Assembly: GCA_030684835.1 (NCBI GenBank)
Contig: JAUXWZ010000160.1
Span: 1-48,322, forward strand
Length of the DNA stretch: 48,322 nucleotides
Direction: 5' to 3'
DNA from: Beijerinckiaceae bacterium
GTDB lineage: Bacteria; Pseudomonadota; Alphaproteobacteria; Rhizobiales; Beijerinckiaceae
Shown: one piece after another, positions 3,909 through 18,354 of the stretch
How the letters are laid out: each line of letters begins with the position of its first letter
How positions within the stretch are numbered: the first letter of the stretch is position 1
The notes under the pieces: model-generated
What the model was told of the DNA's origin: nothing
Databases searched by the model: none
The model's input: only the letters and a program-made list of their open reading frames with translations
Translations under genes and position numbers: made by a program

Positions 3909-4935
3909 TCACTCGAGGAGCAGGCCAAACAAGTTCCGCGGGTCGTCCGGACAGGCGAGCAAGTCGAGCTCGTCGTACATAGCCGTCAATTCAGCCTGAT
4001 GTTTAACATGCACGAGGGTTGAGAAGTCCTCGATGGCGAAGCCGACCGAGTCGAACAATGTGATCTGCTCTTGGCTCACGCGGCCCGCTTCTGTGCCGGT
4101 GATGACGCGCCATAATTCTGTGACTGGGTGGTCGGGAGCAGGTTGCTGAATCTCGCCCTCGGCGCGGGCCTGAGGAGCGTATTCCACGAAGATGTCTGAG
4201 CGAACAAGGACGTCAGGGTGGATTTCCGTTTTACCTGGGCAATCGCCGCCAAGGGCGTTGATATGGATGCCCGCCCGCACCATGTCGCCGGTCAGGACAG
4301 CCGCTTTTTTCTTATCGGCCGTGATCGTGGTCACGATCTGAGCGCCAGTGACGGCCTCTTCCACTGAGCCGCAGACAATGATGTCGAAGCCCGCGCCACG
4401 CCAATTGTGGCTGCATTTGACGCTGGCTGCATTGTCAATATCGTAAAGCCGTAGCTGGTTGACGCCGAGAAGAGCCTTGAAGGCGAGCGCTTGGAACTCC
4501 GCTTGCGCCCCGTTGCCGATCACCGCCATCGACTTGGCGCCCCGTGGGGCCAGGTATCTTCCCGCCAGGGCAGATGTCGCGGCAGTTCGCAAGGCCGTGA
4601 GAATTGTCATTTCGCAGAGCAGCACAGGGTAAACCGGTGTCGACTTCCGCCAGCACGCCGAAACCTGTCACCGTCTGCAGTCCTTTCCGCGGATTGTTGG
4701 GATGGCCGTTCACAAACTTGAAGGCATACCAATGTCCATCGCTGATCGGCATCAGTTCCAGCACGCCGTCAGCGGTGTGGGTGGCGACGCGAGGTGTCTT
4801 ATCGAAAGCATTCCAGCGGCGCAGATCGGCTTCGATGCGCCCCGCCAGGTCGCGCAAGAAGCGCTCAACCCCCGTCGCGCGCACGAGATTGATCACGTGG
4901 TTGACGCTGACGAAAGGGACGGACTTGCGCTTCAT
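3909..4935 (-). pseudogene. Ornithine cyclodeaminase, split by a one-base insertion
   Basis: Two overlapping minus-strand frames together make one OCD protein of about 340 residues. The upstream frame (from ATG 4935) gives MKRKSVPFVSVNHVINLVRA through WYAFKFVNGHPNNPRKG to GVLAEVDTG. The other continues YPVLLCEMTILTALRTAATS, the NAD-binding AVIGNGAQAEFQA, the substrate loop NALGGDCPGKTEI with the catalytic Asp, and TLFDSVGFAIEDFS. OCD converts L-ornithine to L-proline and ammonia using bound NAD. The join requires removing one base in the AAA/TTT at 4631-4633 (GGT-TTAC where GGT-TAC is expected). Either a true frameshift or a sequencing error; all catalytic motifs are intact, so a recent loss or error is likely. 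Confidence 0.85.
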
Positions 4936-6825: not shown

Positions 6826-7036
6826 GCGGTGTAAGCGGGCAGTGGAGAGTGACAAATGTCGCAGGCGTCGAACAACTCGGCACGGTCCACGCAGCGGACC
6901 CCCAAGGCCTCGCAACCTGAATTGGAGTAAGGATCGTGGGCGAGCACGGTGCAGCCGAATGCGGTCGGGAAGCGAGCCACAATTGCGCCGATCTGCCCCG
7001 TGCCTACAATACCGGCGGTCTTGCCATTTAAGATGG
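6826..7036 (-). pseudogene. Fragment of a D-2-hydroxyacid dehydrogenase (NAD-binding domain)
   Basis: Read on the minus strand, about 70 codons give [19 protein letters not shown] followed by [37 protein letters not shown]. This matches the Rossmann core of LdhA-type D-lactate/2-hydroxyacid dehydrogenases, including GxGxxG. The next conserved piece ([10 protein letters not shown]) is present but in another frame, so there is a frameshift near 6845-6855; a stop precedes the fragment near 7040. The catalytic domain on both sides is missing. Clearly a relic. Confidence 0.7.
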
Positions 7037-7138
7037 ACTAATGCCTCGCGGCGGCCCAAGCCGGCCCGGGCGGGCTGTCAGGAGACGAGGCGGCGCTGTT
7101 CAGTCATGAGACCTCGACGAGCAACGGCGGCGCTTTAG

Positions 7139-7267
7139 GCATTTCGTTTTCTTGGATGGAATTGAGAGGGCAATCGCAGGTCGCTGGAAGCTGGATGTCT
7201 GTGTGCCGCAGCGCTTATCGAAAAGCTGCGCCCGCGACAACGGCGGGTCCAAAACGAAACGAAATGC
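7139..7267. repeat. 11-bp inverted repeat bounding a 129-bp segment
   Basis: GCATTTCGTTT (7139-7149) is perfectly inverted as AAACGAAATGC (7257-7267), with partly matching bases further in (TTTTC...TTGG versus CCAAAACG). A smaller hairpin GCAGCGCTT...AAGCTGC lies inside. The form fits a miniature inverted-repeat element or a long-stem RNA. I could not identify a target duplication. The remaining bases of 7037-7515 hold no gene; they contain the terminator at 7437-7466. Confidence 0.3.
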
Positions 7268-7436
7268 GATTTTTATCTGCCGCTAGGAAAGGCTCGCGCT
7301 GAAAGCCCCCCCTCATTGGTTCACGGCGCTGGAAGGACCCGCGCGATTGCGCTTGACTACCATCAGATACGCTGGTGGCCACGCAGCGACTTGCTCACCC
7401 GCATCCAACATCACGCATGATTGCGAGGCGGTGAAT

Positions 7437-7466
7437 CAAAACGCCCGCAGTGGTTAACTGCGGGCG
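7437..7466 (-). terminator. Rho-independent terminator for the minus-strand phage-type genes
   Basis: A perfect 9-bp stem CGCCCGCAG (7442-7450) / CTGCGGGCG (7458-7466) has a 7-base loop. Read on the minus strand it is followed by TTTT (7438-7441 complement), as expected for a terminator. It lies about 50 bases past the end of the pseudogene at 7516-8073. Confidence 0.6.
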
Positions 7467-8073: not shown

Positions 8074-8276
8074 CGGCGCGCCTCCCGGATGTTGTGATGT
8101 CCCTCGCGTCTGCCATAGAGCTTTTGGCCGAGCTGCATGACGAGCTCGCGCTCGGGCCAGGTCAGTCGATGGTCATGGATGGAGACGGCGAGCAGGCCGT
8201 GATCCCGCCAGCCGTCGCGTTTGACGTCCTCGGGCGGCCGACGCTCGCCGCCGTAGCCTCTGGGCAGCCATGTCAT
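8070..8276 (-). CDS. Phage-associated hypothetical protein (68 aa)
   Basis: The product [20 protein letters not shown] continues [41 protein letters not shown] recognise the [11 protein letters not shown]...[21 protein letters not shown] pattern as a short protein widespread in Rhizobiales phage and prophage regions; function unknown. The ATG at 8276 is preceded by GGAGG seven bases upstream. That binding site lies in the end of the beta-glucan-synthase fragment, which marks the junction. It is coupled by ATGA to the downstream gene, which is broken. Confidence 0.65.
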
Positions 8277-8279
8277 TGG

Positions 8280-9400
8280 ATGACCTCCGGCAGCAGGGCG
8301 ACGTATCGGCGGTGACGCTCGCATAGTGCGCGGCGGCGTAGGCGAGCCAGACGCGGTCGTCCGATATGCGCGTGCGCGCGCCCTGGCCCGTGTGTGGAAA
8401 CCACCAGTGTTGAACATCGCCCTCGACAAACTGGCGGCTCGCGGCCCTGAGGAGATGTTCGCGGGTTATCGATGGACGGACCGTGGCGAGTGCCATGCAA
8501 TCCTGCAACTGGTCCCGAAAGCCATAAGCGCCACTGGCCTGGTAAGAAACCCGATCGCGCCCAGACGCGGCAGGCGAGCGTCTGATAGGCGAGCCAACCG
8601 TTGAGCATGATGTCCATTGACCGATCGGGCGTCTTGACCTGAACTGCACCGACGATCTCATCCCAAAACTCACGGACCTCCATCAGCACGGCGTCCAGGT
8701 CAGCCTGACGGTAGCGGGCGATCAACAACTGCGTCGCCGCCGCGTCCTGGGCATCGCCGAGGAAGAGAACGATCTCGGCGACACCGTTCGGCGCGATCTC
8801 GACCGTAGTCTGGAGAGCGCCGCAGGGATCGAGCCCGGCGCCGACCCGCCCCGTAAATGAAGCCCCGTTTGCCAGGGCCGCTGGCCACGCGAGTGCGCCG
8901 TTGCGGCCGATAAACTCCCGGCGATCACCTGTCCAGCTCGTCTGGCGCCCGGCCAGGTCCGCAAAAGCAGTGCGTCTTGCGTAGGTTGGATTCCACGGGT
9001 TGTTCGCAAGCATCGCCCCGCTTTCCGGATCGATGCGCATGGCGACCGACGGCGCCGCCGCGCCGCGGGAAGCGCCAAGAACCCATTCCACGTATGCCGT
9101 CACCGACAGCCGTCTGGTGCGGCTCGAAAGATTGCGCAATTTCAGGCGCGATATCTTCAGCGGATCGGCGAGCGGCACATACTCGAGTAGCTCCGCGGCG
9201 ATGCCGTGCGAGGTGTGCTCGAAACGGCTGTAGCCCCATCCATGCCGCGCCACATAGGTTGCCGTTTCATCCCGGATCGGCAGCGCCGTGGGGCTCCAGA
9301 GATGTCCTGTCTCCTCATCCCGAAGATAGAATGCTTGGCCAGGGGGATCGGTCAAAACAAATTTGAGATCACGCCGATCGACGGGGCAGCCATGGCGAGC
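8280..9400 (-). pseudogene. Fragment of a cyclic beta-1,2-glucan synthase (NdvB/ChvB, GH94-like part)
   Basis: The frame carries the typical C-terminal part: PPGQAFYLRDEETGHLWSPT, GYSRFEHTSHGIAAELLEYV, KISRLKLRNLSSRTRRLSVT and [19 protein letters not shown]. At 8543-8546 one extra base shifts the frame; the adjacent frame continues [35 protein letters not shown], and [17 protein letters not shown] second shift near 8305 precedes VALLPEVI. Intact enzymes exceed 2,700 residues and span the inner membrane; here about 370 remain, bounded by unrelated sequence at about 9370-9400 and 8280. It is therefore non-functional. Confidence 0.8.
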
Positions 9401-9484
9401 TATGTAGTTCGAATCTACGCAACGCCGCCGCCCGTCCTTAAGCGCGCTATCGAACTGATGAATGACGCGCAAAAATGAGGTCAA

Positions 9485-10239: not shown

Positions 10240-11184
10240 TTAGTTTTCGTCGGACCGGTGATCATCTGGGGCATTTAGGTTTACCACACTGTCGCTTTGA
10301 AACACCGTTGTCTGAGCCGCTATGTCGCAAATGCGGAGAATGGTCGGATCGATGATCTCCGGATGTCGAACCAGAAAGAATTCAGTCGACAGGTCTGCGT
10401 TAGGGGGAGCGACAATCAGCAAGCTGCCTCTTTTCAATTCCCTATTAACGAGAATTGGAGGGATCAAAGCAATTCCGGAACCCATTTCTACAATTTTTAT
10501 GATGACGCTTAGGCTGTTACAATTGTGGACCAGTGTCGGACGCTGTCCGTGCCGACGAAACCATTTCATTGTCTTTGCATGCAAATGCGAATCGCGGTGG
10601 AGCGCATATATTGGTAGCGCAGCGAGTTCCTTGGGTGAAAGATCATCGGAAGTCAGAACCAGAGACTTCGACGCCATCCAACGCAGAGGTATCGAGCCTA
10701 GACTTTCAGAGTGGAGATTTGGTGCGCCCGCACTTGTGACAAATGCCAAGTCTATACGCCCGTCTTCGAGCATCGGAAGCAGAACGTTCGAAACGTCCAT
10801 ATGGATATCCAGCTGAACTGATGGATAAGTATTATTGAGGCGAGATAAAAATGCGGGGAACCAAGTTAGCGCAACGATCTCGCCGATACCGATGCGGATA
10901 GTGCCGCTGACAATTTCGTTGTCTGAGATCTCGCTCTCTATCCGGGCGGCTCCGGCGAGAATCTCGCTTGCGATAGGAAAAAGCGCTCGCGCGGAAGCAC
11001 TCGGCCTCGGGCCTCGGCTGCTCCGCTCAAACAGCGGCTTCCCGATCACGCGTTCGAGCTCCTTGATCCGGGCTGAGATTGCCGGCTGCGTGGCGTGCAG
11101 CTTCTGAGCGGCGAGACCGAACCCGCCAAGGTGCATGATCCAGTAGAAGGCTTCTAACTGCCGTATGTTGAGCTTGTTTGACAG
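10240..11184 (-). CDS. LysR-family transcriptional regulator, probably starting at CTG
   Basis: Residues 1-65 form a winged helix-turn-helix (AAQKLHATQPAISARIKELE); residues about 95-300 are the LysR substrate-binding domain. The first ATG (11136) would begin inside helix 1 and lose the canonical NIRQLEAFYWI. The same frame extends upstream to a TAG with no ATG, GTG or TTG. A CTG at 11184-11182 has GGGAG eight bases before it and gives MSNKLNIRQLEAFYWIMHLG, the standard LysR start; total 314 residues. The gene is divergent from the radical-SAM operon with 116 bp between them, the classic position of a LysR activator that responds to the pathway substrate. Function as its regulator is inferred. 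Confidence 0.85.
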   Translation of the reverse strand: MSNKLNIRQLEAFYWIMHLGGFGLAAQKLHATQPAISARIKELERVIGKPLFERSSRGPRPSASARALFPIASEILAGAARIESEISDNEIVSGTIRIGIGEIVALTWFPAFLSRLNNTYPSVQLDIHMDVSNVLLPMLEDGRIDLAFVTSAGAPNLHSESLGSIPLRWMASKSLVLTSDDLSPKELAALPIYALHRDSHLHAKTMKWFRRHGQRPTLVHNCNSLSVIIKIVEMGSGIALIPPILVNRELKRGSLLIVAPPNADLSTEFFLVRHPEIIDPTILRICDIAAQTTVFQSDSVVNLNAPDDHRSDEN

Positions 11185-11300
11185 CTTCTAATCTCCCGGC
11201 CGACCTCATAACGAAACCTGATGGCAAGCGATCCAAAGTTTTTGATGGACCTCTCGGTACCCGTCGGGGAAGCTCTGAAGGTACAACGTGAGAGATCAAT
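11185..11300. promoter_or_regulatory. Divergent promoter region with candidate LysR operator
   Basis: This 116-bp gap must hold promoters for both the LysR gene and the 11301 operon. An interrupted palindrome TCCA-N10-TGGA (11232-11249) lies near its middle and has the T/A-flanked dyad form LysR proteins use. I could not assign -10 or -35 boxes with confidence. Confidence 0.3.
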
Positions 11301-12773
11301 ATGTCCACAACAGCTCCGGCTCAGTCACACTTGGCGTCACTTGAAGATCTCTTTCGCCACTTTCCTGATGTGCCGCGCGAGGTCATCTTGAAGATCGAGT
11401 TGCTCAGCCACGGGCACTGGTTCACCGACGCTGCCTTGGCTGCCACACAGGGTTCGCTCGTCAAATCCTATCGCCTATTTTCATATGATCTTGTTTCAAT
11501 GGACAAGCTCAAGCGGGGAGAGGCTCGGCAGGTCCCGGAATGGTTCTATATCTTCAGGGGCATATACGATTTGCGGGCGGTGGCCATCCAGACGACGATG
11601 GATCCGACTTCGCCATTCATCGTAGATGTTTCCGATGGCAAGCTCGTCCTGACATTGGAAGGCAAAATACTCTCGGACGTGTCGCTGCCTGTTCGCCCTG
11701 ATTACTATTCGAAGTCATTTTCCAATGACGTACCCTATCATGAGATCTGTGCATTCGGCGCTTTCTTTACAGTATTCCGTCAGTGCCAGTTTTGGGGTCC
11801 GAAGGAAGAATGCCGGTTCTGCGATATCAATCAGAACGCGCGGCAAATGAAGATGTCCAAGGACTTCACTCTCAACGCTCCGGTGAAGTCCATCGAGCAG
11901 GTGCGCGAGGCGGGGATGGAGGTGAGCCGGAACATGCTGGCCAAGGAAGGCTATCAGGCGCCGGTCAGCTTCATTATCACCGGAGGTACGATCACCAACG
12001 TCTTACGCGGTCTCGAAGAGAACGAATTTTACGCGGAATACGTGCGGGCGCTGAAGGATCACGGCCCGCGACGGCACATCTCGCTCCAGACGAACGCTAA
12101 AACACGTGACGAGATCAAATGGCTTCACGCCCAGGGTATGGATGGGCATCACGCGAACATGGAGGTCTGGGATCAGCGCCTGTTCGAGTGGATCAATCCG
12201 GGCAAGGCGCGGCGTATCGGGCATGCCGAATGGATCAAGCGCATGCTCGATTCCGTCGATATCCTCGGCGAGGGCAACGTTCGGCCGAACTTCGTCGGCG
12301 GAATCGAAATGGCGCAGCCGCACGGTTTCGCGACAATCAAGGAAGCGTTGGCGTCGACAGGCGAAGGCCTCGACGTCATGATGAGAAACGGCGTCGATCC
12401 TCGTTTCAATCAATGGAGGCGTGAGCCTCACTCCAACATCGTGCAGGAACATGAGCAGCCGCCGGTCCCTTCAGAGTTCTACATCCGCTTAATGAGCAAG
12501 CGTTATGAACTCTGGAAGAAGTATGCATTGCGCCTGCCGGTAAAAACCGAGTTCTGCGAAACGCGCCGCTATATCGGCGTGGCGCACGGCACTTACGATG
12601 ACTTCCCGCTCTTGTTCGACGCTCCTTGGTATCAGGACGCCAAGGCCCGGACACCGGAAGAGATTGTCCAGCTCGCAGCGGGATGGAAGGTTCCGAGGAA
12701 GGTTTCGATCCATGGGCCGGAAGCGTCTCTCTCGCAGGGCGAACGAGCGACGGGCGCAACCGTCGTCGTCTAG
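11301..12773 (+). CDS. Radical-SAM-like enzyme with atypical C-x8-C-x2-C cluster motif
   Basis: The 490-residue product has Cys162, Cys171 and Cys174 in the string CQFWGPKEECRFCDIN. The CRFCD part matches the last two ligands of a radical-SAM 4Fe-4S site, but the first cysteine is eight rather than three residues away. FIITGGTITN (about 224-233) fits the SAM-binding GGE-type motif, and HISLQTNAKTRDEIKWLHAQ, MEVWDQRLFEWINPGKARRI and RPNFVGGIEMAQPHGF resemble later strands of the barrel. About 150 residues precede the cluster. No signal peptide, so cytoplasmic. First gene of a five-gene set; an upstream GAGAG serves as weak binding site. Substrate unknown. The family assignment rests on motifs; the spacing makes it unusual. 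Confidence 0.75.
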   Translation: MSTTAPAQSHLASLEDLFRHFPDVPREVILKIELLSHGHWFTDAALAATQGSLVKSYRLFSYDLVSMDKLKRGEARQVPEWFYIFRGIYDLRAVAIQTTMDPTSPFIVDVSDGKLVLTLEGKILSDVSLPVRPDYYSKSFSNDVPYHEICAFGAFFTVFRQCQFWGPKEECRFCDINQNARQMKMSKDFTLNAPVKSIEQVREAGMEVSRNMLAKEGYQAPVSFIITGGTITNVLRGLEENEFYAEYVRALKDHGPRRHISLQTNAKTRDEIKWLHAQGMDGHHANMEVWDQRLFEWINPGKARRIGHAEWIKRMLDSVDILGEGNVRPNFVGGIEMAQPHGFATIKEALASTGEGLDVMMRNGVDPRFNQWRREPHSNIVQEHEQPPVPSEFYIRLMSKRYELWKKYALRLPVKTEFCETRRYIGVAHGTYDDFPLLFDAPWYQDAKARTPEEIVQLAAGWKVPRKVSIHGPEASLSQGERATGATVVV

Positions 12774-12824
12774 GTAGAACAAAGTCAGGCTACTGCCGAA
12801 ATCGGCGGGCCTGCTAGAAGAAAT

Positions 12825-12834
12825 AGGGGGGGGT
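12825..12834 (+). promoter_or_regulatory. Ribosome-binding site consisting of a G8 tract
   Basis: The start at 12835 is preceded by A, eight consecutive Gs (12826-12833) and a T. The G-run pairs with the anti-Shine-Dalgarno in several registers, very close to the ATG. A homopolymer of this length is prone to slippage, which would change spacing rather than reading frame. Confidence 0.5.
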
Positions 12835-14226
12835 ATGGAAGAGATTATCGCAACGCACCTCGCGAATTCTTCTCATGATCGAATCGACGCCTCGGCGCGG
12901 CATGCTACCAAACATCACATTCTGCACACGCTGATGTGTGCCGCAGCGGGTTCCAAGGCTCCAGGAATCGCTCCGTTACTTGAACTTGCCTGCGAAAGCG
13001 GAGGCGAGGGAAAAAGCTCGGTGGTGGTCCATGGTGCTAAATTGCCCGCCATGCATGCAGCCATGGTCAACAGCTCGATGGCTCATGCTCAAGACTTCGA
13101 TCTGAATGACGATCGGACATTCTATAAAAGTAGCGTAACCGCGGTGCCGACGGGCTTTGCGGTGGCCGAAGAACTCGGCGGCGTGCACGGGACGGAATTA
13201 CTGACCGCAATCTGCGCGGGCATCGACTTCGGTATCCGGATCGGGCTCGGCGTGCTGCCAAAGCCGGCGCATGCCAGATCCCAGATGATTGGCGGCTTCG
13301 CCTCGGTTGCCACTGCGGGGAGATTGTTGAAGCTCGACGGCGAGCAGATGCTTGATGCGCTCGGGATCGTGTACTGTCAGGTTGCTGCAGGCGGTTCCAG
13401 CAACGACTCCCCAGCGCTGACAAAACGTCTGGCTCCGGGCTTGTCGGCCCGGGCCGGCGTGTTTTCCGCCCGACTGGCACAAAAGGGCTTCAAGTCTGCA
13501 CGCGGCGTATTGTCTGGGAAGCGTGGGTACTTCCAGCTGAATCATGGCCGGGAAGGTGACCTTGAGGCAATTACATCCGAGTTGGCTCAACGATGGGAAG
13601 TCGTCAACGTTGGGCCCAAGGGCTACCCATGTTGCCGTGTATTGCATGCTCCAATCGACGCGACGCTTGCGGCAGTGAAGGAGCATGACATCAGGGCCGA
13701 AGAAGTCGAACGGGTCCTTGTTCGAGGCAGCGCCAGCAACATTTTCATTTCAACCGGAGGGAAGGCGCCGGTTTCCTTCCACAAGTATCGCCACCCAATC
13801 GGTGTGGTGGATGCCCAGTTCAGCGTCCACTGGGGAGTCGCGGCCGCCATCGCCCGGAAGAGCGTGTTTATAGACTGCTTCACTGAAGATGCGCTGACGG
13901 ATCCCGTCATCAACCAGCTGACTGATCGCATTGAGCTGATAGCCGATCCTTCTCTCGACCCCGTCGATGATCTCCTCGCTCCGGCTGTCGTCGAAATTAC
14001 GACGAAGTCACGGGGCGTCTTCAAAAGCCGTGCGGACTTTGCAAAGGGCAACCCCAAAAATCCCGTGACCTGGGATGAGACCGTTGCGGTCTTGCATCGA
14101 AGCGCGCCCTTCATGGCGTACCCAATACCCGCGCGTAAGTTGGAGACGCTCGTTTCACTTGTAGCAGATCTCGAGCATATCGGGGATGTCAGCGCCTTAA
14201 TAGCCAACCTGATCCGGGATCGATAG
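12835..14226 (+). CDS. MmgE/PrpD family protein
   Basis: The 463-residue product matches the MmgE/PrpD fold: an N-terminal all-helical domain (ATHLANSSHDRIDASARHAT, MVNSSMAHAQDFDLNDD with the family's H-A-x-D-x-D-D active-site string, SQMIGGFASVATAGRLLKLD) and a C-terminal alpha-beta domain from about residue 270. Known members are 2-methylcitrate dehydratase, cis-aconitate decarboxylase and iminodisuccinate epimerase, all acting on small polycarboxylates. The FDLNDD variant differs from the commoner DFDDT, so the substrate may differ. It starts 61 bases after the radical-SAM gene and is followed after 57 bases by a Bug protein, suggesting one operon. Probably cytoplasmic; activity cannot be predicted beyond the family. 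Confidence 0.85.
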   Translation: MEEIIATHLANSSHDRIDASARHATKHHILHTLMCAAAGSKAPGIAPLLELACESGGEGKSSVVVHGAKLPAMHAAMVNSSMAHAQDFDLNDDRTFYKSSVTAVPTGFAVAEELGGVHGTELLTAICAGIDFGIRIGLGVLPKPAHARSQMIGGFASVATAGRLLKLDGEQMLDALGIVYCQVAAGGSSNDSPALTKRLAPGLSARAGVFSARLAQKGFKSARGVLSGKRGYFQLNHGREGDLEAITSELAQRWEVVNVGPKGYPCCRVLHAPIDATLAAVKEHDIRAEEVERVLVRGSASNIFISTGGKAPVSFHKYRHPIGVVDAQFSVHWGVAAAIARKSVFIDCFTEDALTDPVINQLTDRIELIADPSLDPVDDLLAPAVVEITTKSRGVFKSRADFAKGNPKNPVTWDETVAVLHRSAPFMAYPIPARKLETLVSLVADLEHIGDVSALIANLIRDR

Positions 14227-14283
14227 ATCAGAGGATCAAGCAAGAAGTCGAAAGCCTTGTCACAAGGGTAAAGGAGGGGACAC

Positions 14284-15351
14284 ATGTCTTTGCGTCAGGT
14301 AGCCGTGACGGGAGCGGCAGCGCTTTGCCTTTGGACCAATCCCACCAGCGCGCAATCGATCGCTGAGTTCTACAAATCCAAGCCGATCCAGATGATCATC
14401 CGCTCCGCAGTCGGGGGATCCTACGATCAATACGGTCGGCTTGTGGCGCGGCACATCGGCAAGCACATCCCTGGACATCCTACGGTTGTTCCTGCGAACA
14501 TGCCGGGCGCCGGGGGGATCACAGCAGCAAACTATGTGGCGAATATCGCGCCGAAGGACGGTTCAATACTGACGATGGTGGGGCAAGGCCTTGCCACCGA
14601 TCAGGCGCTCGGAATGACCCAGGCGCTGAAATTTGATTTGCGTGATTTCAATTGGATCGGCAACGTCAGCAAAGCCAATCAGGCGCTGTGGGTTTGGCAT
14701 ACATCCAGAACCAAGACTTTGCAGGACGCAATGCAGCGCGAAACACTTATTGGCACGACCGGAGCGGGATCGATCACCGTCTTCCTGCCAGCAGTTTACA
14801 ACAACATCTTGGGTACAAAGTTCAAACTTATATTCGGGTACACTGGTGGAAGCGCAGTGGATTTGGCTATGGAGCGAGGCGAGGTCGAAGGCCGAGCTTC
14901 CGAGACTGCGGCGAGCTACAAGGCGAGCAAGCCGTCCTATTTGCGCGACAAGATGATCATTCCGATCATCCAGACCGGACTGGCCAAAGATCCAGGGATA
15001 GACGCCCCACTGCTTCGGGATCTCGCACGCAACAAAGAACAACAGGAAATCTATGACTTTATGTCGAAAGCTGTCTCGATCGGCCGGCCCTTCGCAACCA
15101 GCCCGGGAGTGAGCGCCGACCGGGTGACGGCGCTACGCAAAGCGTTCGACGCGATGCTTGCGGATTCCGAGTTCAAGGCCGATGCTGAACGCCAGCAGGC
15201 GGAAATAGATCCAATGTCGGGTTCTGAATTGGCGCAAGTCGTCAAGGATCTCATCGAGGCCCCCAAGCAACTGCGGGACAAAGTCAGGGTCGCGATAGAG
15301 CCTCGCAAGGAGGATGCGAGAGGGCTGTCACCGACGGAAGGGACAAAATAA
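14284..15351 (+). CDS. TctC/Bug-family periplasmic binding protein 1
   Basis: The 355-residue protein has an N-terminal signal peptide (about 1-24, ending NPTSAQS). It then shows the Bug signatures: IIRSAVGGSYDQYGRLVARH, IPGHPTVVPANMPGAGGITA, ANYVANIAPKDGSIL and a C-terminal ALRKAFDAMLADSEFKADAE helix. The family captures carboxylates and amides in the periplasm for TctAB transporters or for signalling. No TctA or TctB gene is nearby, so it may work with a distant transporter or as a sensor. The start follows a strong AAGGAGG by six bases. It lies between the MmgE/PrpD gene and a paralogue, which suggests the pathway takes up its substrate from outside. Confidence 0.88.
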   Translation: MSLRQVAVTGAAALCLWTNPTSAQSIAEFYKSKPIQMIIRSAVGGSYDQYGRLVARHIGKHIPGHPTVVPANMPGAGGITAANYVANIAPKDGSILTMVGQGLATDQALGMTQALKFDLRDFNWIGNVSKANQALWVWHTSRTKTLQDAMQRETLIGTTGAGSITVFLPAVYNNILGTKFKLIFGYTGGSAVDLAMERGEVEGRASETAASYKASKPSYLRDKMIIPIIQTGLAKDPGIDAPLLRDLARNKEQQEIYDFMSKAVSIGRPFATSPGVSADRVTALRKAFDAMLADSEFKADAERQQAEIDPMSGSELAQVVKDLIEAPKQLRDKVRVAIEPRKEDARGLSPTEGTK

Positions 15352-15504
15352 CTGGTCCGTAGGCGATTATGACGGAAGAATGTCGCATTCGTAAAAATAG
15401 GGGAGCAGAGATCGCATGCTCTTTGAGCGATAGCCACATCCGCATCGGCAACAGGACGCGTATTCGAAATAAGCCGTGTTGAGCCGCCACGTAAGGGAGG
15501 AAGT

Positions 15505-16524
15505 ATGTTCGCAGGAATTTTCGGCCGGTATCTGGTCGCGGCATTTACCACCTTGTCGCTTACAATGTGCGCGTCCGCCGCCAGCGCGCAAGGAAGCAGG
15601 CAACTCCGGATTTTGGTGGGAAGTAGTGTAGGTGGCGGCTACGACATCTGGGCGCGAACGATTGCCAGACATATTGGCCGGCACCTGCCGGGCAATCCAG
15701 CCGTGATCACGCAGAACATGCCGGGTGCAGGCGGCATCATAGCCGCCAACTTCCTATATGAAACCGCGCCCAGAGATGGATCCGTTATCGGTTCCATCCC
15801 CCGGGATGGAGCGGTGAGCGCGATCGCGGGCACCAATGGGGCTCGCTACGACGCGTCGAAATTCGGCTGGCTCGGTACGCCGACAACCGAAACGGCGATC
15901 TGCCTCGCCTCAAATAAAGCGAAGGTCCAAACGGTCGAGCAGCTCTTCAAGCAAGAGCTAATCGTCGGGGACACAGGAGCTGGCACCGGCGGTCGGATCT
16001 ATCCATTGGCTCTGACAGGGCTCTTGGACATGAAGTTCAAGATCATCACCGGCTTTCCCGGATCCGTCGAAGTATGGCTCGCGATCCAGCGCGGCGAGGT
16101 CGATGGGATCTGCGAAAGCCTTGCCAGCGTGAAGAATAGGGATCCACAAGGTCTTCGCGACGGCAAGATCAAGATTTTGTTCCAGGCGGGGCTCGAGCGA
16201 AGCAATGAGCCAGAGGTTAAGGATCTACCTTTCATCATGGACTTCGCGAAAACAGAGGAGCAGAAGCAAGCGCTTAGGTTTCTTTACGCAGGTCAGAGTT
16301 TCGGTCGCCCCTTCGTAGCGCCGCCCGGCCTGCAGCCCGAAAAGCTCAAGGAGCTGCAGGATGTTTTTGGCAGGACAATGAAAGATCTGGATTTCGTTGC
16401 GGATGCAGAGAAGCAAAAACTGGATCTTGATCCGCATACAGCTGCGCAACTCGAAGGCTACGTCAGAGATCTATACGCAACGCCAAAGGCTGTCGTGGAC
16501 AAGATCGGGACCTACATGAAGTAG
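15505..16524 (+). CDS. TctC/Bug-family periplasmic binding protein 2
   Basis: The 339-residue paralogue of the preceding gene has a signal peptide (1-28, ending SAASAQ). It shares the same motifs: ILVGSSVGGGYDIWARTIAR, LPGNPAVITQNMPGAGGIIA, ANFLYETAPRDGSVIGSI. The central substrate loops differ clearly from protein 1 (TPTTETAICLASNKAKVQTV), so the two may bind different ligands. The start has GGAGG four bases upstream. The 153-bp gap before it is the longest inside the cluster and could hold a separate promoter or a processing site; I see no clear hairpin there. Confidence 0.88.
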   Translation: MFAGIFGRYLVAAFTTLSLTMCASAASAQGSRQLRILVGSSVGGGYDIWARTIARHIGRHLPGNPAVITQNMPGAGGIIAANFLYETAPRDGSVIGSIPRDGAVSAIAGTNGARYDASKFGWLGTPTTETAICLASNKAKVQTVEQLFKQELIVGDTGAGTGGRIYPLALTGLLDMKFKIITGFPGSVEVWLAIQRGEVDGICESLASVKNRDPQGLRDGKIKILFQAGLERSNEPEVKDLPFIMDFAKTEEQKQALRFLYAGQSFGRPFVAPPGLQPEKLKELQDVFGRTMKDLDFVADAEKQKLDLDPHTAAQLEGYVRDLYATPKAVVDKIGTYMK

Positions 16525-16598
16525 GTCAAGGCCGACAACTAGCAGGCGAAGAGTGCAAAGGCTGCGCAGTTGGATCCGCTGCACTTGGGGGGCCAGGC

Positions 16599-17693
16599 AT
16601 GATCTATTTGAGCAATGACGACATCGCCAGGCTTCTGACGCCGGAAAATTGTATCGAGGCGTTGGAAGATGCTTTCGAGCACCTGGCGAACGGTCGCGCA
16701 ATCTCGCGCCCGAGGACTGACGTTTGGGTTCCCTGTGACCGCCCCGACGGCTATTATCGCTGGGGCAGCATGGAGGGAGCCATCGAGCCCTTGGGGATCT
16801 TTGCAACCCGCATGAAGTCGGACATTGTCACGTGGACCCCTCAAGGGACCGACGAACTGCATTGCGGCGCACCCGGAACATTCAGCGGCTTCCTGATGCT
16901 TTTCAGCACGCGGACAGGTGAGCCTCTGGCCATCATGAATGACGGCATACTCCACCATCTTCGAGTAGCCGCTGGAGCCGCTCTGGGCGTCAAGTATCTC
17001 GCCCGACAGGACGCCAAGGTCATCGGCATTTTGGGTTCAGGCGGAATGGCCCGGAGCTACCTGTCTGCCATCTGCGCCATTCGAGGCATTTCCAGGGTCA
17101 AAGTGTACAGCCCCACGAGGTCTAACCGCGAGGCATTTGCGGGAGAGATGTCAGAGAAGCTTGGCGTGGTCGTGGATGCGCTGGATAACCCAGAAAGCGT
17201 CGTCAGGAATTCCGATATTGTAGCGACATGCACTGACTCGGGAACTCCAGTCGTCACAAACAAGGCCTGGATCGGTGAAGGCATGCACCTGACGAATTTG
17301 AGCGCAAAGGAATGGGGGTTGGACGTCGTGCGATCGTGTGACGTCGTAGTCCAGATTGGGGAAGAAACATCCAGAGATCAGAATCGGACCGAATCTTCCG
17401 GGCGTGAAAGGAACTGGGCTGCTTGGGTGCTCGGACGCCCGGATGAAATCGCACGCATTCCAAAGCGGACTGTGAATAATATAGATTTCATGAGTTATCC
17501 ATCTTTTGTCGATGTTTTTCAGGATCCAGGCCGATATCGAACCGGCCCCGGTCAAATTACGTTCTTTCACAATTTAGGTTTGCTTGGATTCCAGTTTGCA
17601 GCGACCGCAGCCAAGGCACTGGATCTTGCAAAGCAGTCAGGGGCGGGAATGCAAATTCCAACCGACCCTTTTCTGCAGAACATAAGGGATTAA
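16599..17693 (+). CDS. Ornithine cyclodeaminase / mu-crystallin family protein with altered active site
   Basis: The 364-residue protein has the OCD fold: an N-terminal dimerisation part with the substrate-binding Lys in FATRMKSDIV, then Arg in HHLRVAAGAALG, and a Rossmann core with GILGSGGMARSYL (GxGxxA, residues 143-153). In true cyclodeaminases the loop reads NAxGGD with a catalytic Asp; here it is TNLSAKEW, with Glu238 in that place. Members of this superfamily also include alanine dehydrogenase, ketimine reductases and imine-forming enzymes of amino-acid-derived metabolites. So NAD(P)-dependent work on an amino or imino acid is likely, but not ornithine cyclisation. A GGGGGG six bases upstream sets the start. 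It is the last intact gene of the cluster. Confidence 0.82.
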   Translation: MIYLSNDDIARLLTPENCIEALEDAFEHLANGRAISRPRTDVWVPCDRPDGYYRWGSMEGAIEPLGIFATRMKSDIVTWTPQGTDELHCGAPGTFSGFLMLFSTRTGEPLAIMNDGILHHLRVAAGAALGVKYLARQDAKVIGILGSGGMARSYLSAICAIRGISRVKVYSPTRSNREAFAGEMSEKLGVVVDALDNPESVVRNSDIVATCTDSGTPVVTNKAWIGEGMHLTNLSAKEWGLDVVRSCDVVVQIGEETSRDQNRTESSGRERNWAAWVLGRPDEIARIPKRTVNNIDFMSYPSFVDVFQDPGRYRTGPGQITFFHNLGLLGFQFAATAAKALDLAKQSGAGMQIPTDPFLQNIRD

Positions 17694-17694
17694 T

Positions 17695-17808
17695 CCATTA
17701 CGTGAAGCGTTCAAAAATATGGTTGAAGATCCAGCTTTTTCAGAGGAGCCTCCAAGCAAGATCTATCGCTTAGCCCTGAATATGGGCGAACTTCAGGCTA
17801 TAGTTTAA
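17695..17808 (+). pseudogene. C-terminal remnant of a third TctC/Bug protein
   Basis: Starting one base after the previous stop the plus strand reads PLREAFKNMVEDPAFSEE, PPSKIYRLALNMGELQAIV then TAA (17806-17808). This aligns with the last helices of Bug proteins (compare LRKAFDAMLADSEFKADAER and the SGSELAQVV region of the gene at 14284). No start codon or upstream domain exists, so it is a deletion scar in which most of a third binding-protein gene was lost, with the break right after the cyclodeaminase-like gene. Confidence 0.6.
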
Positions 17809-18099
17809 CGCATTTCGTCAATGCCGCGCGAACGGATGGGGGCGTCAAAAGCGCTTGTTGAGCAGCCGTGCGATAAGTCCGGTCCACACGGTTGAATTTT
17901 TCAATGAAATTTGGTGCCTAGCTTCTGTATGATCGATAATGGCAATCGAAAGTCTGCGTATTTATTTGTCCTCGCGGCAGAGTCCGCCTCTCAAAGAAAG
18001 GAGACGAGCCGATGAACAGGTCGTCAGGCGCTTTGGCCATTTTAGCTATGTCAGCGTCCGCGGGGGCATGGCGCAGATCGATCAACCATGGCGGCAGGG
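17809..18099. other. Spacer without clear gene
   Basis: AT-richer sequence (TTGAATTTTTCAATGAAATT around 17893-17912) contains an imperfect palindrome that could be a promoter or operator. Short frames on both strands are not recognisable. Confidence 0.35.
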
Positions 18100-18354
18100 T
18101 CATGGCCTTCTTGATCCCTCGGCGACAATGGCCTCCGTCGCCAGAAACGTAAGTTGCGCCCTCGTCCTGAGCCAAGACTTAAGACCACGAACGCCATAGG
18201 GCGTGAACGTAATCTGAGGGTCCTTTTCGCGGCGCAGGGCCTTCGACGAACGACCTAAGCTTATCGTCAACAGGGCCTGTGACATTCGCCCGTTTTGGCC
18301 CGTGGCCGTTTTCTGCACAACGAATGTCATTTCAACAAATACACGGCTCTTCAA
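18100..18354 (-). CDS. Possible hypothetical protein (84 aa, TTG start)
   Basis: The frame reads MKSRVFVEMTFVVQKTATGQ to ITFTPYGVRGLKSWLRTRAQ and ends in EGSRRP. It starts with TTG and has AGGA six bases upstream. The central segment has plausible secondary structure but no family is recognised. It could be a chance frame; it is kept because spacing, binding site and direction fit the following minus-strand gene. Confidence 0.3.
   Translation of the reverse strand: MKSRVFVEMTFVVQKTATGQNGRMSQALLTISLGRSSKALRREKDPQITFTPYGVRGLKSWLRTRAQLTFLATEAIVAEGSRRP

Follow-up and report, generated by a model that had tools for sequence, protein, structure and literature searches.

A possible LysR-controlled uptake and degradation module joining a variant radical-SAM enzyme and a lysine-type MmgE/PrpD protein in a Beijerinckiaceae bacterium

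According to the available text of PMC12290011, the MmgE proteins with an established function work on the C2 position of four-carbon dicarboxylates, with an enolate proposed, and MmgE/PrpD proteins are predicted to share one mechanism with a conserved histidine. The same text gives H85, D88, H99, H150, K198, and K266 as putative catalytic residues of iminodisuccinate (IDS) epimerase and describes the residues of the mechanism as highly conserved across the family, while the accessible part of PMC7347537 proposes H99 and Y145 as the bases of this enzyme. Here we describe a locus of a Beijerinckiaceae bacterium in which an MmgE/PrpD protein has a lysine in place of the catalytic histidine and is encoded beside a variant radical S-adenosylmethionine (radical-SAM) enzyme. 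The stretch of DNA analyzed, referred to as the window, comprises 48,322 nucleotides of contig JAUXWZ010000160.1 (assembly GCA_030684835.1). We believe that the locus may be an uptake and degradation module, rare, transferable, and controlled by a LysR protein, with the radical-SAM enzyme and the MmgE protein acting in sequence, the latter on a four-carbon dicarboxylate part. We give this reading a probability of roughly 0.48. The itaconate/methylsuccinate degradation cluster of PMC12290011 likewise places an MmgE/PrpD protein within dicarboxylate degradation. The gene content differs from that cluster, which has a CoA-transferase, hydratase, lyase, and dehydrogenase in the available text of PMC12290011, whereas the window has radical-SAM, Bug, and ornithine cyclodeaminase (OCD)-family proteins. 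In the open-frame list, a LysR gene on the minus strand is divergent from five co-oriented plus-strand genes (10240-17693), in the order variant radical-SAM, MmgE/PrpD, BugA, BugB, and OCD-family reductase:

10240-11136, minus strand: LysR-type regulator (PF03466/PF00126), ATG at 11136, frame open to about 11184.
11301-12773, plus strand: variant radical-SAM enzyme, 490 residues (NF045502; Cys162-x8-Cys171-x2-Cys174).
12835-14226, plus strand: Lys-type MmgE/PrpD protein, 463 residues (MmgE_PrpD N and C domains; K98 in NDDRxxYKSS).
14284-15351, plus strand: Bug/TctC-like periplasmic binding protein A (BugA), 355 residues (TctC family; signal-peptide-like N-terminus).
15505-16524, plus strand: Bug/TctC-like periplasmic binding protein B (BugB), 339 residues (TctC family; signal-peptide-like N-terminus).
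16599-17693, plus strand: OCD/mu-crystallin-family NAD(P)-type reductase, 364 residues (OCD_Mu_crystall; C-terminal PTDPFLQNIRD).
17698-17808, plus strand: possible leftover C-terminus of another Bug gene, weakly matched (36-residue frame).

Both MmgE/PrpD Pfam domains score over their cut-offs in the window protein (PF03972, 145.9 bits; PF19305, 92.2 bits). Together with these domains, it shares H84, D87, K197, and K262 with IDS epimerase, cis-aconitate decarboxylase, methylsuccinate isomerase, and 2-methylcitrate dehydratase, the two lysines being the enolate-stabilizing ones (K198 and K266 in IDS epimerase). Unlike in these enzymes, the catalytic histidine (H99 in IDS epimerase, H103 in IRG1, H102 in methylsuccinate isomerase) is replaced by K98, an assignment on which an ungapped stretch and a 34-sequence alignment agree. 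The places of H150 and Y145 are not kept either, as His146 is out of register with the former and no tyrosine stands at the latter. The 34 aligned sequences were 13 of the 141 MmgE proteins from ten genomes with radical-SAM relatives, four of the six from the window's own genome (that of the window included), 16 from a sample of 398 genomes of the phylum, and the MmgE of locus L021. At place 98, lysine was found in the window and at loci L023, L171, and L172 (introduced below), and histidine in all of the others (30/30), including three other MmgE proteins of the same genome and the 16 from the phylum sample. The four Lys-type proteins form one clade with support of 100/100. This MmgE is also uncommon locally: at E 1e-50 it was matched in two of 101 genomes, the other match being just 30% identical, and the next best same-genus MmgE is likewise 30% identical. 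The own genome holds six MmgE matches. In two plasmid searches, the closest MmgE among the matches listed reached 30.8% (25 of 202 records) and 32.1% (12 of 96) identity.

The radical-SAM protein scores 157.5 bits against NF045502 "variant_rSAM" (cut-off 125), a domain-level model with a name that carries no function; the branch to which the window protein belongs is seen here together with MmgE and binding proteins. The family scan gave it no Pfam match, and PF04055 matches 15 of 24 aligned radical-SAM rows (E up to 1, best 4.9e-07), the window row not among them. Its cysteines (Cys162, Cys171, and Cys174) follow a CX8CX2C pattern, a variant of CX3CX2C, and are invariant in all 24 rows of this alignment, from which L036, owing to a stop codon, and most Streptomyces loci were left out. 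Judging from the motif and the family score, we regard the protein as a radical-SAM enzyme predicted to cleave S-adenosylmethionine. A PDB profile search with it returned pieces of NifB only, at E 0.24-0.25. Two more specific identities were rejected. The first, the MSMEG_0568 family radical SAM (TIGR04043), which we take to be a member of Nit1C nitrilase clusters, was rejected on score (46.2 bits against a cut-off of 303.7); its similarity to the window protein is weak, and no nitrilase-cluster gene was recognized by eye at the locus. The second, an ArsL-type radical SAM, was rejected on its motif, as ArsL carries CX3CX2C in the available part of PMC8552651 and the window protein has CX8CX2C.

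The radical-SAM gene is rare around the window. At E 1e-10 it was found in two of 101 genomes, namely the own genome and G090 (three copies, about 30% identical), and in four of 385 genomes of the class, the own counted; with a profile at E 1e-60 and at most four candidates scored per genome, only the own genome was recovered among 398 of the phylum. Among the best 80 of 541 relatives in a GTDB genome scan, two metagenome-assembled genomes (MAGs) carry a radical-SAM protein 71% identical to that of the window, at loci L022 (Burkholderiaceae) and L023 (Betaproteobacteria). In the radical-SAM tree, these two group with the window protein (support 100/100), and the proteins of L171 and L172, both from the Syntrophobacter MAG G845, form a second group (100/100). 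A fork joins both groups and five Chloroflexi sequences, and because its support is only 82/75, a single clade of radical-SAM proteins linked to Lys-type MmgE is not established.

Neighboring genes at these loci bear on whether the gene set is conserved. On one strand, within 5.1 kb, L023 encodes the 71% radical-SAM protein, a TctC protein (219.7 bits), an MmgE (41%), and an OCD protein (63%). L171 has, also on one strand and in the order of the window, a radical-SAM protein (53.6%), an MmgE (42%), and a Bug protein (29%), while at L172 the MmgE (42%) stands 2.2 kb from the radical-SAM gene (53%), with two binding-protein-like genes between them by eye. Apart from the window, a radical-SAM gene beside or near a Lys-type MmgE gene is therefore seen at three loci, in two other genomes. 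The co-occurrence in other genomes that the initial annotation had looked to is thus found for parts of the set, in the run of L023 with its single TctC/Bug gene and in the shorter one of L171. It is from these runs that we judge whether the gene set exceeds chance, within the limits described below.

Several observations weigh against the module that we propose. Of all MmgE sequences found, the four Lys-type proteins are also the nearest four. The residue thus cannot be separated from kinship, and the lysine represents one inherited change rather than four. At L173 (radical-SAM 31%) and L021 (26%), the neighboring MmgE proteins are His-type; the link to the Lys-type thus holds for the near radical-SAM branch only. 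At E 1e-20, the ten genomes behind L022-L031 hold 29 radical-SAM matches, of which G842, a Chloroflexi genome, contributes 18 and G845 three; OCD matches occur in 8/10 and MmgE matches in 9/10 of these genomes. An OCD gene lies near the radical-SAM gene in one of the ten, that of L023, and eight of the ten, including that of L022, have no MmgE match above 37% identity. The L022 genome (G836) lacks an OCD match at E 1e-20, and the best of its 23 MmgE matches is His-type and 33% identical. Across the ten genomes, 4/29 radical-SAM genes have an MmgE gene at a distance of up to 3 kb compared to 1.77 expected under random placement (p 0.095), so this nearness is not above chance. Without G842, which has 69 MmgE matches and no nearness excess (1/18), the count is 3/11 compared to 0.16 expected (p 0.00025), a split that was chosen after seeing the data. 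Most of the comparison loci come from MAGs, and the scan behind them took in the best 80 of 541 relatives. Finally, no TctA or TctB was recognized by eye among the window frames of at least 150 residues, the flanks having had no family scan.

The part played by the binding proteins is harder to weigh. The two Bug proteins that the initial annotation had pointed out are present, with PF03401 (TctC) scores of 28.4 and 27.6 bits, just above the cut-off of 27, and N-termini that look signal-peptide-like by eye, but they are weak evidence. Of 31 same-genus genomes (the own, G000, included), 29 hold 40 to at least 42 Bug matches, and the other two hold 25 and 7. As Bug genes are so common in the genus, two of them at this locus say little. 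The own genome alone gave 253 first-look Bug candidates, 42 of which were scored, and BugA is 55% identical to a Bug protein encoded near an MmgE gene on contig C159 of the same genome. This weak-TctC subtype of Bug shows a very large expansion across the genus. The OCD gene directly adjoins a Bug gene in 9 of the 13 genus loci examined, so their adjacency appears to be a local habit of the genus, and neither the OCD-Bug nor the BugB neighborhoods in the genus gave a substrate clue.

These counts, together with the 39 of 101 genomes that hold an OCD match, the six MmgE matches in the own genome, and the p value of 0.095, would also be consistent with five genes that met by chance in a genus where Bug and OCD genes abound, with no single pathway and with the radical-SAM gene as the sole newcomer. 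We regard such a chance meeting as unlikely, since the MmgE and OCD proteins of the window are unlike those of the genus (next best 30% and 49% identical) and their nearest relatives found adjoin the same radical-SAM gene, MmgE and OCD in L023 and MmgE in G845.

A solute-binding gene stands beside or near the radical-SAM gene in 7/9 loci (L022-L029 and L031), a raw count with no background rate alongside. Beside it, a binding-protein gene was identified by family match at L025, L026, L028, and L031, by likeness at L027, and as TctC at L029; the stretch of L024 starts 219 bases before the radical-SAM gene and is hence uninformative on this point. At L024-L027 and L031 (labeled Myxococcota, except for L026, Pseudomonadota, and L031, Thermodesulfobacteriota), a methyltransferase-like gene follows the radical-SAM gene, by family match at L026 and by likeness at the rest. 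This gene is short and overlaps the radical-SAM gene by 11 bases in L026. In G842 (L028, L173-L179), solute-binding-like genes lie between the radical-SAM genes, one by family match and the others by eye. L030 and L042 (Desulfocarbo and Desulfosarcina, respectively) have a radical-SAM gene of about 41% followed by hydantoinase- and molybdenum-hydroxylase-subunit-like genes, again by eye. Streptomyces radical-SAM relatives (about 40%) have neighbors in common among themselves. A tblastn search of their stretches at E 1e-6 turned up no relative of MmgE, OCD, or Bug, but it also overlooked the weak Bug gene of L029.

Residues 1-252 of the OCD-family protein align to pyrroline-2-carboxylate reductase (6t3e, E 6.1e-32), its nearest solved structure by sequence. 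It belongs to the same family as this enzyme and the iminosuccinate reductase BhcD, yet it stays below all of the NCBIfam equivalog and subfamily cut-offs listed, and the GGD stretch found in a classical OCD frame elsewhere in the window is replaced. The aspartate of this stretch is catalytic in ornithine cyclodeaminase. By score and by this stretch, the protein does not appear to be an ornithine cyclodeaminase proper. At E 1e-60, the 39 of 101 genomes with a match are all of the same genus, the own included, and the others are at most 49% identical. In the OCD tree, the window and L023 proteins pair as sisters (100/97) and 22 same-genus sequences stand apart from them, in a topology with long end branches (the window and L023 among them) and with one long row meeting the group. 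The classical ornithine-cyclodeaminase-like protein, recognized by eye at 3909-4935 on the minus strand, is split over frames 3909-4625 and 4435-4935, a frameshift caused either by decay or by sequencing.

An amino- or imino-polycarboxylic substrate had been suggested for this locus at first, and in its most explicit form the MmgE protein would be an IDS epimerase and the OCD protein an imine reductase of an aminopolycarboxylate pathway. Matches of the former to IDS epimerase (2hp3, phmmer E 3.6e-20) and of the latter to iminosuccinate reductase (6rqa, E 6.9e-14) fit this idea. Because the bases of IDS epimerase are missing, it is unsupported: neither H99 nor Y145, the bases given in the available part of PMC7347537, is kept, with K98 at the first place and no tyrosine at the second. 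The OCD protein lacks the GGD stretch, scores 78.3 against the BhcD cut-off of 500, and has a counterpart near the radical-SAM gene in one of ten genomes, and family scans found no C-N lyase among the six locus proteins. We therefore consider a pathway of this type very unlikely.

It is also conceivable that the locus is biosynthetic and that a small molecule, such as an unusual amino acid or a metal-binding compound, is made by its radical-SAM, MmgE, and OCD proteins, with the Bug proteins recapturing it or being bystanders. The OCD relatives matched include SbnB and CmnK, makers of natural-product precursors, and L023 adjoins both SelD and SenB (409 bits), the latter belonging to selenoneine synthesis. 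Synthesis nevertheless seems improbable to us, given a score of 87.5 against the SbnB cut-off of 326.9, a divergent LysR gene and binding proteins that give the usual look of an uptake locus, and the lack of a ligase, carrier, or nonribosomal peptide synthetase among the six locus proteins in family scans (flanking frames were inspected by eye only). Selenium genes lie beside both of the 71% loci, SelB at L022:4000-5997 and SenB with SelD at L023:8078-11618; none was recognized by eye in the window.

The gene families given in the initial annotation (LysR, radical-SAM-like, MmgE/PrpD, two Bug, and OCD-like) agree with our family scans, and its five co-oriented genes behind a divergent LysR gene are confirmed by the open frames at that place. 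Its end at 17808 takes in the 36-residue frame, the match of which to the C-terminus of a Bug protein is weak (38% over 37 residues, E 0.11). The gaps between the five plus-strand genes measure 61, 57, 153, and 74 bp, and purine-rich stretches precede MmgE, BugA, and BugB. A terminator scan of 10900-18200 gave five sites compared to 7.1 expected, none of them in these gaps, and promoter-like sites numbered three compared to 3.2 expected. With gaps of 57-153 bp that are free of terminator-like sites, the five genes may form one transcript. The G+C content of the six locus genes (0.53-0.58) differs little from that of seven other contig genes (0.56-0.61). The LysR frame extends 5' of the ATG at 11136 as KLSNKLNIRQLEAFYWIM... 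with no ATG, GTG, or TTG start before the first helix; translation may therefore begin at a CTG near 11184. At the position of the LysR gene, L023 has a divergent protein with a helix-turn-helix (HTH)-like start and a citrate-synthase domain, and the same kind of protein is divergent from the radical-SAM gene at L022, where SelB follows the radical-SAM gene. These proteins (L022:1096-2421 and L023:1457-2800) score 28.5 bits for HTH_17 at L022 (cut-off 27) and 23.6, below the cut-off, at L023. Their presence suggests a regulator responsive to a compound resembling citrate or oxaloacetate.

Genes in the fetched stretches were called with our own codon-usage script, and names given without a family match are by eye. 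The gene caller returned three genes only in the left 10 kb of the window, where two overlapping minus-strand frames (8173-9484) resemble, by eye, what we take to be a broken cyclic-glucan-synthase-like protein. Near the contig end of L022, a frame at 6947-7450 resembles 3-hydroxyisobutyrate dehydrogenase at its start but citryl-CoA lyase at its end, and is either a fusion or an assembly chimera.

If the locus is indeed an uptake and degradation module, the LysR protein would switch on a single transcript and the periplasmic Bug proteins would catch an organic acid. After its entry into the cytoplasm, the substrate may be opened via hydrogen abstraction by the variant radical-SAM enzyme, leading to a rearrangement, the cleavage of a C-C bond, or a change at C-H. 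Next, the Lys-type MmgE would work through an enolate on a four-carbon dicarboxylate part, at its alpha carbon, with Lys98 either serving as the base where a histidine usually stands or, for a 2-oxo acid, forming a Schiff base. The OCD-family reductase would use NAD(P)H to make or break a C=N bond, or else a C=O bond. What we observe is the gene content and its layout, the nearness of radical-SAM and Lys-type MmgE genes, and the residue change; the single transcript, the transfer, the direction toward degradation rather than synthesis, the order of the steps, and all of the chemistry are what we infer.

Each part belongs to a known family, and we did not find the combination or the His-to-Lys MmgE subtype described in the literature searched. 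That the CX8CX2C radical-SAM enzyme and the Lys-type MmgE, acting in sequence, constitute a new degradation or conversion pathway, containing the first MmgE/PrpD protein with a lysine for the catalytic histidine and spread by transfer among the lineage of the window, betaproteobacteria, and Syntrophobacter-like bacteria, is a real but doubtful possibility. Most known radical-SAM enzymes belong to the synthesis of cofactors and natural products. If true, our proposal would bring radical chemistry into the breakdown of small acids, with a radical-SAM enzyme tied to uptake proteins and an altered MmgE/PrpD protein. The gene set provides a concrete list of co-conserved enzymes for a substrate search, and the Lys-type clade would be a direct and testable exception to the prediction, as worded in the available text of PMC12290011, of one mechanism with a conserved histidine for the MmgE/PrpD family.

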